From an uncultured Chlorobiaceae bacterium (GTDB lineage Bacteria > Bacteroidota > Chlorobiia > Chlorobiales > Chlorobiaceae), in the NCBI GenBank assembly GCA_903866255.1, contig CAIPMW010000009.1:62001-126000 (forward strand): a DNA stretch of 64,000 nucleotides, read 5' to 3'. This document shows positions 42,109 through 44,824 of this stretch, in pieces (within the stretch, counting starts at the first letter, position 1; each line of letters begins with the position of its first letter). The position numbers were made by a program, and so were the translations under genes. Under the pieces are notes generated by a model that had not been told where the DNA came from, made no database searches, and saw only the letters and a program-made list of their open reading frames with translations.

Positions 42109-42537
42109 ATGGCGCAGGCTAAAAAAGGGGATAAGGTATTAGTTCATTATACTGGAACCCTTGATGATGGCACAGTGTTTGACAAATCGGCAGAGCGAGA
42201 ACCTTTGACGTTTACCGCAGGTGGCGGAGAGGTTATTGCCGGGTTTGATAGTGCTGTTCTTGATATGGCACCTGGTGACAAGAGGGTCACCGTCATTCCT
42301 GCCGGGGAGGCTTATGGAGAGCACAGCAAGGAGCTTGTGACAGAGGTAGACCGCTCAAGGTTCCCGGCTGACATGGAGCTTGAGCTTGGCCAGCAGCTTC
42401 AGGTGGGGCTGGAGGATGGCAATCAGGCTGTAGTGATGATTGTTGATTTGAGCGACACATCGGTGACGCTTGATGCCAACCACCCTTTGGCTGGCCAGCA
42501 GCTCACTTTTGAGATAGAGCTTGTGGAGATTCTGTGA
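42109..42537 (+). CDS. FKBP-type peptidyl-prolyl isomerase (SlyD-like)
   Basis: The 142-residue protein has an FKBP domain interrupted by an inserted chaperone flap, as in Sly[19 protein letters not shown] and the return strand [11 protein letters not shown] frame the insert (about residues 70-120). The active-site run [20 protein letters not shown] is present. It lacks the histidine-rich nickel-binding tail of E. coli SlyD. It lies near the [NiFe] hydrogenase genes, but without the metal tail a nickel role is unlikely to be inferable. Confidence 0.92.
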
Positions 42538-42565: not shown

Positions 42566-42623
42566 GATAATAGAGCCCTGAAAGGGCGGGATATGCTAGC
42601 GATGGGTGTGCAGCCCATCGCTT
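42566..42623 (+). repeat. Palindrome-rich dispersed repeat, copy 1
   Basis: This 58-bp unit starts GATAATAGAGCCCTGAAAGG. It contains two hairpins: GCCCT-GAA-AGGGC and GCGATGGG/CCCATCGC (42599-42606 with 42614-42621). A near-identical copy lies at 42752-42807, shortened by 2 nt in the second loop. It begins 28 bp after the FKBP gene. Confidence 0.9.
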
Positions 42624-42625
42624 TG

Positions 42626-42683
42626 CACGCATGGCTCTCCGGCCCACAGGGCTACACGCATGGCTCTCCAGTTCACAGGGCTG
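42626..42683 (+). repeat. Tandem 29-bp duplication
   Basis: Two adjacent 29-bp units (42626-42654 and 42655-42683) both begin CACGCATGGCTCTCC and contain CACAGGGCT. They differ at about four positions and lie inside the repeat element. Confidence 0.85.
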
Positions 42684-42703
42684 CACCCTGTGTTAACAGA
42701 AAA

Positions 42704-42718
42704 CGCCCTTTCAGGGCT
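42704..42718 (-). repeat. Inverted copy of the repeat terminus
   Basis: CGCCCTTTCAGGGCT is the exact reverse complement of the 15-bp AGCCCTGAAAGGGCG found at 42574-42588 and 42760-42774. With the first copy it bounds a 145-bp segment in the manner of terminal inverted repeats. Confidence 0.85.
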
Positions 42719-42751
42719 AAAATATGGTTATTTTCTTTTGGTTTTATACAT

Positions 42752-42807
42752 GATAATAGAGCCCTGAAAGGGCGGGATATGTTAGCGATGGGTGCAGCCC
42801 ATCGCTT
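42752..42807 (+). repeat. Palindrome-rich dispersed repeat, copy 2
   Basis: This 56-bp direct copy of the unit at 42566-42623 is identical apart from one substitution and a 2-nt loop deletion. It ends 12 bp before the hydrogenase large-subunit stop codon. Confidence 0.9.
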
Positions 42808-42819
42808 CGTGCATTTTTA

Positions 42820-44094
42820 TCAATGCACCGAGCAGGAGATACAGGGGTCGTAAGAGCGCACCACCATTTCACACAGTTTGGTTATCTCTCCGTCACTTTT
42901 TCCCTCCCTGAGCGACTGTTCAACGAGTGCCCGCAGATCAGCATGGATGTTTCCATTATTCTGCGTCGTTGGAATGATGCAGTCCGCTTTTGCCACTTTT
43001 CCCTGCTCGTCGATTTCAATATGGTGATAGAGTACCCCGCGTGGCGCTTCAACCGCTCCGGTGGCTTTGCCTGCTTTTGGTGTGTAAGGGGTTTTTATCT
43101 CCGCAAGATCACTATCAAGAAGTGAGTTGATCAGCTCTTCGGCATCTTCAAGGATATGAACGCACTCAACAAGCTGGGCGATGTTGTTCATGAAGGGGTT
43201 GTGACACACCGGCTGAAGCCCAAAGCTTTCGGCGCACTCTTTTGCTTTCGGGTGCAGCAGATGGTAGTTGTTGTTGAAGCGTGCCAGCGCTCCTGCCGCC
43301 GAGGATTCCCTGCTGAGACGGGTAAATTTCGAGGTGGAAAAATCACGGGTGTACTCGTTGGTCATCAAGAGGTAATCATTCTCATCCCGTATAACGCCTT
43401 CTGTTGAGACAAGCTGTCCACCGATGGCCGGGTAGGTTGAGCCGTTTGAGAGTGAGATAAATTCCGTTTCACGGCTGAAATCAGGGATGATGAGCGATCG
43501 GAAAAAAGTGCAGGCATTCTCAAGCACTGGTTTTCTCTCCTGAATCATCGTGCGCAGATGTAACAGTTGCTGCTTGTCAGGAGTCTTGCTTAGCCCGCCT
43601 ACCACGAGGCTGACGGGGTGGGTGCAGCGTCCGGTTGTTATGGTGCTGATCTCATTACCGAGTTCCTTGATCTGAAGCCCCGCCCTGACCAGATCGGGGT
43701 GAGACTGCATAAGAGGCAGAACGCTTGAAGTGCCCGCAAAATCGGGCGTGGCGAGGAAAAAGAGGTGCAGTGCATGGCTCTGGAGGGTCTCGCCGTGCAT
43801 TGCCAGCAGTCTTGTCTTCTCTGCCACAATCGGCGGCACAATCTCCATTGCCCGTTCAACCGCTCTGATGCTTGCAAGTGAGTGGCTGATAGAGCAGATA
43901 CCGCAGATTCTTGATGTCAGAAAGGGTACTCGTTCAGCGCTCATCCCCTTGAGCATCACCTCGAAAAACCGTGGCGTCTCCACAATAGCCCAACGAGCCT
44001 CAATAAGCTCGCCATCCCTGACCGTAATCTGGATATTGGCATGTCCTTCCACTCTGGTCAAGTGACGGATATCAAGCGAGTAGTCACGTTTCAT
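42820..44094 (-). CDS. [NiFe] hydrogenase large subunit, cytosolic group 3-like
   Basis: This 424-residue catalytic subunit holds the NiFe(CN)2CO site. Both ligand motifs are present: N-terminal [12 protein letters not shown] (about residue 60) and C-terminal DPCISCSVH. Short length and the [20 protein letters not shown] blocks fit cytosolic group 3 enzymes (sulfhydrogenase alpha / Mvh-like). The stop codon follows the ligand-motif histidine directly, so there is no C-terminal peptide to be cleaved during maturation. The start overlaps the small-subunit gene by 11 bp. No maturation (hyp) genes are nearby. Confidence 0.92.
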
Positions 44095-44824
44095 CAGTAG
44101 CGACAGGTTCAAAGGCGTTATAAAAGGCAAGTTTTTCGTGCAGGTCGCGGTAGCTCAGTTTTCTCTCCCTTACCAGCTCAAGAAAGGCGGGCATATTGAG
44201 CTCCCCAGCAGGACCACGGCATCCCAGACAGGCGGTTTTCCCTGTTGGACAGACCGCATTGCAGCCAGCGCGGGTAATCGGGCCGAGGCATATTTCGCCA
44301 AGGTCGAAGAGGCAGGTGTTGAGCTGCTGCTTGCACTCCACGCAGACGGGATAGTTCGGAAGCGTTGGTATCGAATCAGTCGCAAGGCTTACGATAATCC
44401 GTTCAACCTCCTCCCGGGCAACCGGACAGCCGGGAATAGAGAAATCAACCTTCACCACGTCACTGATTTTGCGCACCGGCAGGGTTTCAATGGTTATGTC
44501 GCCATAAATCTCCCTGACAGCCTCATCCAACCGGAATCTGTTTTTCAGGCTGTTGACCCCACCAAAACAGGCGCAGGTGCCAAAAGCCACCAGCACTTTC
44601 GCCTGCCGCCGTATTTTCAGTAGCCGTTCCACTTCATCCTGGCGGCTGATGCTTCCCTCCACAAGCGCAATGTCGTAGTCATCAAGCCTCTCCGATGAAA
44701 TTTCTCTGAAGTTTCTGATATCGAGCAGTTCAAGAAAGTCGGTGAGTGTTGACTCCCCGTTGGCAAGCTGCAACTGGCACCCTTCGCAGCAGGTAAAATC
44801 GAACGAGGCGATTTTAAGCTTCAT
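44084..44824 (-). CDS. [NiFe] hydrogenase small subunit, cytosolic group 3-like
   Basis: This 246-residue electron-transfer subunit carries Fe-S clusters. The proximal-cluster motif is CCEGCQLQL at residues 12-20, with GTCACFGG and the PGCP block further on. A cysteine-rich C-terminus ([22 protein letters not shown] and CLGCRGPAG) ligates medial and distal clusters. There is no Tat signal, so it acts in the cytosol. It is the first gene of a two-gene unit. The flavin/Fe-S partner subunits (beta, gamma) that usually accompany the sulfhydrogenase type are not upstream. Confidence 0.92.

Follow-up and report, generated by a model that had tools for sequence, protein, structure and literature searches.

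A tail-less lineage of group 3b-type [NiFe] hydrogenases that has probably lost its cleavable C-terminal extension and is proposed to mature without proteolysis

In [NiFe] hydrogenases whose large subunit carries a C-terminal tail, the site is closed by cutting that tail off once nickel has been inserted, according to the available portions of PMC12134894. The best solved-structure match to the enzyme considered here is soluble hydrogenase I (SHI) of P. furiosus, a group 3b enzyme (sequence match, 1.4e-61; fold, TM about 0.85) with the same four-subunit set and the same final residues, DPCISCSVH. The P. furiosus large subunit continues for four residues (VVRL) past the histidine, whereas the present one has none. 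As far as the accessible text goes, removal of that tail by FrxA is needed for activity, and recombinant SHI is inactive when both proteases are absent (PMC2865534). Naturally extension-less hydrogenases are described as numerous in the accessible sections of Hartmann et al., where groups 2b, 2d, 4c, 4e and 4g are named (PMC7294309); these comprise the H2 sensors 2b and 2d, the CODH-linked 4c, Ech (4e) and 4g (PMC7294309, PMC12134894), and, as the present enzyme does, they end at the last ligand, with no cleavage step expected. The lineage described below sits instead among tailed group 3b-like enzymes in our trees. Within the available portions of PMC7294309 and PMC12134894, no group 3 enzyme appears in the lists of naturally tail-less hydrogenases; a tail-less group 3b lineage is not named in the corresponding portions of PMC7294309, PMC12134894, PMC7654741, PMC2670836, PMC6769069 or PMC2865534, and the accessible parts of the open-licence literature searched describe no tail-less group 3 enzyme. 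Tail-less hydrogenases are a known kind; what is new here, measured against those sources, is a tail-less lineage inside group 3b.

The locus is on contig C9 of G000, a genome of Chlorobium type with Chlorobiaceae as its nearest named relatives. The window, that is, the whole stretch of 64,000 nucleotides that was analysed, contains the following features.

42109..42537, plus strand: FKBP-type peptidyl-prolyl isomerase (PF00254), convergent with the hydrogenase genes and bordering the corresponding intergenic gap in relatives
42566..42725, no strand assigned: two further repeat copies, Acido-Lenti-1-like at 42574-42620 (minus) and 42674-42718 (plus)
42752..42807, no strand assigned: palindromic repeat of two hairpins adjoining the stop codon, with an Acido-Lenti-1-like stretch on the minus strand at 42760-42804
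42820..42848, minus strand: last metal-ligand motif DPCISCSVH with TGA stop
42820..44094, minus strand: [NiFe]-hydrogenase large (alpha) subunit, tail-less, 424 aa (open reading frame; PF00374, 138.8 bits)
44084..44824, minus strand: hydrogenase small (delta) subunit (PF01058; best NCBIfam matches HydD and ShyD, both below cut-offs)

On the minus strand the delta gene comes first and the alpha gene follows. The listed open reading frame of the large subunit starts at TTG 44130; ATG 44094, the alignment start of many relatives, gives 424 aa. The protein ends in DPCISCSVH (ending [12 protein letters not shown]; longer form [14 protein letters not shown]) and is followed at once by TGA at 42822-42820. 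The first-pass annotation had remarked that the large subunit stops at its last metal ligand, beside a repeat, and sequence and reading frame agree on this. The metal-ligand motifs RICGIC and DPCxxCxxH are invariant in 16/16 aligned members. The gene is under purifying selection and not decayed, since dN/dS against 12 relatives is 0.08-0.14.

The best NCBIfam matches of the large subunit are ShyA (263.8 bits against a cut-off of 700) and HydA (220.6 against 880). Missing these equivalog cut-offs lowers the case for calling the protein ShyA or HydA itself, but not the case for a 3b-type enzyme, because the models are tuned to specific enzymes. The group 3b label, as judged from sequence comparison, draws on the operon, the best matches and the tree. 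Best matches by NCBIfam, by PDB sequence and by fold are all group 3 enzymes, and group 2 and 4 tail-less enzymes were not among the tree rows. In many relatives the gene order is hydB-hydG-delta-alpha, so that the alpha gene closes an operon with electron-transfer subunits. An AlphaFold model from 16 sequences (mean pLDDT 81.8) served for the fold match only: its uncertainty falls exactly on residues 1-18 and 422-424, and for that reason we dropped structure as an explanation of the missing tail.

We compared the C-terminus across relatives, taking the best 80 of 123 loci. It was readable in 77 of the 80 (L070 and L085 are cut by a contig end, and L096 is frameshifted), and all 77 stop directly after the same histidine. 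They include Chlorobium ferrooxidans and Chlorobaculum thiosulfatiphilum, together with MAGs titled Desulfobacterales, Desulfuromonadales, Nitrospirae, Neomarinimicrobiota and Proteobacteria; no close kin with a tail were seen among these relatives. The comparison comprises 94 plus-strand-read rows: the window, the 77 loci and 16 further ones, whose genomes are mostly those of the 77. Apart from the window, the repeat pattern was found in 0/93 loci within 150 bp of the stop.

Of 395 sampled Desulfobacterota genomes, 114 gave a match with an E value of 1e-30 or lower, and 60 further stretches were fetched. This gave 103 C-termini, with the window genome's own HupL counted in (L135 is the window; L139/L223, L140/L224 and L141/L225 are repeats of one sequence). 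All 16 sequences at least 52% identical to the window's, some of them repeats of one sequence, are tail-less. Among the other 87, tails of 4-27 aa are present in 84 (4-26 aa in the 70 tailed rows outside the long-tailed outgroup, HupL and L220), the tailed relatives being 33-47% identical to the window's large subunit; the three tail-less exceptions, L210, L211 and L217, stand at 30-35%. The genomes of these three (G321, G100 and G365, respectively) do contain HycI, the maturation endopeptidase, on other contigs.

In a maximum-likelihood tree of 90 rows, computed with tail residues excluded, the 26 tail-less rows of the main group formed one clade, nested among tailed group 3b-like rows; its support is 100/100, and each of 200 bootstrap trees recovered it. 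This tree omitted L001, L205, L217, L220 and L222, which had long branches in a quick tree, as well as 11 Chlorobiaceae rows removed by thinning, and the program issued a warning about long branches that join at the outgroup. The quick tree, with 106 of 212 sequences kept at below 85% identity to one another, contained a tail-less clade of 37 rows and needed three trait changes. P. furiosus SHI alpha was added in a quick tree only, where it took a long branch in the ingroup of tailed 3b-like enzymes. In the 90-row tree, L210 and L211 are a separate tail-less clade whose neighbours are two enzymes with tails of 4 aa. So the tail was lost at the base of the main tail-less clade, because that clade is nested among tailed enzymes, and at least once more elsewhere. 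The clade also favours the second of the two readings offered by the first-pass annotation, namely that the subunit belongs to a naturally tail-less type.

Outside the tail, only one radical fixed difference separates the 37 tail-less rows from their 30 tailed sister rows. It lies at the position before the last histidine, which is Val in 37/37 tail-less and Thr in 28/30 tailed sequences. As a sufficient cause this Val was rejected; it is also found in tailed L161, L199, L200 and L202 and in P. furiosus.

The distribution of the endopeptidase follows the tailed enzymes. The first-pass annotation had pointed to a dedicated maturation endopeptidase as something to look for, and the window's own genome does have one HycI-family match (C95:38015-38380), but it sits just downstream of HupL (C95:35645-37198), which has a 15-aa tail, and not at this locus. 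Across 61 genomes, tallied by hand, HycI was found in 39/39 with a tailed large subunit and in 0/22 without one; the tailed enzyme is HupL (matched only in part in G014 and G018), except that G051 and G055 have a 3b-like one, its tail read for G051. In G027 (95% complete) and G020 (81%), the tail-less enzyme is the only [NiFe] large subunit, and both are without HycI. HypD is kept in G027; it was found neither in G020 nor in four hydrogenase-free genomes of the same genus. HycI was present in 14 genomes of a 17-genome set, those without it being G020, G027 and G071, the last of which has one further, partial match of unknown kind besides this tail-less enzyme.

In a set of 45 Desulfobacterota genomes, a same-strand HycI 77-600 bp downstream of the large subunit was found in 17/36 with a tailed 3b-like enzyme and in 0/6 of the tail-less clade. 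One of these six, G065, has a HycI 1.3 kb away on the opposite strand, where it directly follows a different large subunit; in another tail-less-clade genome, G408, it was not found. Nor was HycI found in G223 (L160) or G306 (L178) despite their tailed 3b-like large subunits, which may reflect incomplete genomes or another protease; because of these two cases, absence from a draft genome is not proof.

How did the present end arise? The first-pass annotation had raised the possibility that the palindromic repeat, when it inserted, took away a former tail; the gene would then be a truncated one. The repeat does begin only 12 bases past the stop (42819-42808) and is absent from the other loci read. 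The same end residue in 77/77 readable repeat-free relatives nevertheless speaks against truncation, as does the intergenic comparison. An FKBP gene flanks the gap in 47 relatives (counts tallied by hand), and 36 of these have a gap of only 9-115 bp and share the end of the gene; the remaining 11 have one of 251-4874 bp. The short gaps often hold a GC-rich inverted repeat, as seen by eye, and the window's gap is 282 bp, filled with repeats. The last codons agree in the 12 relatives compared, with divergence only after the stop. Aligned with relatives without the repeat, the C-terminus proves to end ancestrally at the histidine, independently of the repeat. Truncation is ruled out by the ends of repeat-free relatives, the intergenic comparison and the dN/dS values, leaving it a vanishingly small probability, and since repeat-free relatives in several phyla share the same end, the repeat is not the cause of the missing tail. 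Very probably it is a later, unrelated insertion between two convergent genes that changed only non-coding DNA. We also considered that a tail might still be made through stop-codon readthrough or recoding. In the window the stop codon sits inside a small 7-bp hairpin (GTGCATT/AATGCAC, 42808-42828), formed between the last bases of the gene and the 12 bp leading up to the repeat, and an in-frame TGA occurs in some other kinds of hydrogenase in these genomes. Relatives, however, use TGA, TAG and TAA alike at this position, share by eye no common sequence past the stop, and, where they hold this enzyme alone, HycI was not found in their genomes; readthrough is therefore highly improbable.

A third explanation is that the clade is not an active H2 enzyme at all, having an incomplete cofactor or serving as a sensor or scaffold, so that cleavage would not be needed. 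Precedents exist in the accessible portions of the literature, where the named tail-less groups include H2 sensors (PMC7294309, PMC12134894) and the HupK/HoxV-type scaffold resembles a large subunit (PMC12134894). We regard this as unlikely, given that both metal-ligand motifs are kept in 16/16 aligned members, that the gene closes an operon with electron-transfer subunits in many relatives, and that G027 keeps HypD. The explanation we favour, with considerable confidence, is that an old group 3b-type (sulfhydrogenase-like, HydBGDA) cytosolic lineage, now in Chlorobiota, Desulfobacterota, Nitrospirota and Neomarinimicrobiota, lost its cleavable tail at its base and matures without proteolysis.

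Under this favoured explanation, the large subunit would be made at its final length, Hyp proteins would insert the NiFe(CN)2CO cofactor, and no endopeptidase would act on the product. The check on loading would be made in another way, most likely at docking of the loaded large subunit with delta; we infer this step because, in the available text on the regulatory hydrogenase, proofreading at complex formation is pointed to (PMC7294309). It is likely that a clade spread over several phyla has dispensed with the cleavage checkpoint and that loading is proof-read elsewhere, probably at small-subunit docking, since only one radical fixed difference was found against the tailed sisters. Taken together with that reading, green sulfur bacteria in which this is the sole [NiFe] hydrogenase, such as G027, are likely to be natural endopeptidase-free [NiFe] systems.

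Why most [NiFe] hydrogenases carry a tail only to cut it off again is a question posed by the mixed effects of its removal, which by genetics inactivates some enzymes and not others, according to the available portions of PMC7294309. With this lineage, naturally tail-less enzymes and their tailed sisters can be compared inside a single subgroup; its members occur in named green sulfur bacteria, and also in genomes in which no endopeptidase was detected. Should the enzymes mature as proposed, other hosts could produce them with no need of a matched protease.

The repeat itself is dispersed in its own genome: 42745-42819 gave 21 matches there, its own copy counted in. A direct copy at 42566-42608 is 98% identical over 43 nt, and an inverted copy at 42678-42725 is 77% complementary. 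The fold of 42745-42830 is better than that of shuffled sequences (z -4.4; 0/200 as good). Three copies match the whole 46-position Acido-Lenti-1 model (Rfam RF01687; E 1e-05 to 1e-03), and we say only that they resemble Acido-Lenti-1, because all three scores (35.5, 30.7 and 28.2 bits) fall below the gathering score of 37. The likeness extends over the whole model, but here the element is a dispersed repeat in a Chlorobium-type genome. The source table for Acido-Lenti-1, in the portion available, names Acidobacteria and Lentisphaerae (PMC2864571), so that the repeat described here lies outside the taxa given there.

The four-gene operon of relatives is split in the window's genome, with hydB and hydG together on contig C108 (L123:11816-13773) and delta-alpha in the window (42820-44824). 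The C108 pair adjoins a gene that by eye resembles the hydB flank of relatives; loss of hydB-hydG from the genome was dismissed once both were found on C108. A further observation concerns L096 (G023), a second large-subunit copy that lies in two different frames; its identity is about 72%, and that of the delta accompanying it 58%. G023 also has an intact large-subunit copy. Identities to the window genome vary along the operon. The alpha subunit is 91% identical to those of L035 and L036, but their delta is at 78% and their HydB and HydG at about 71%; L055 and L099 show 88, 89-91, 88 and 92-93%. These mosaic identities suggest recombination within the operon.
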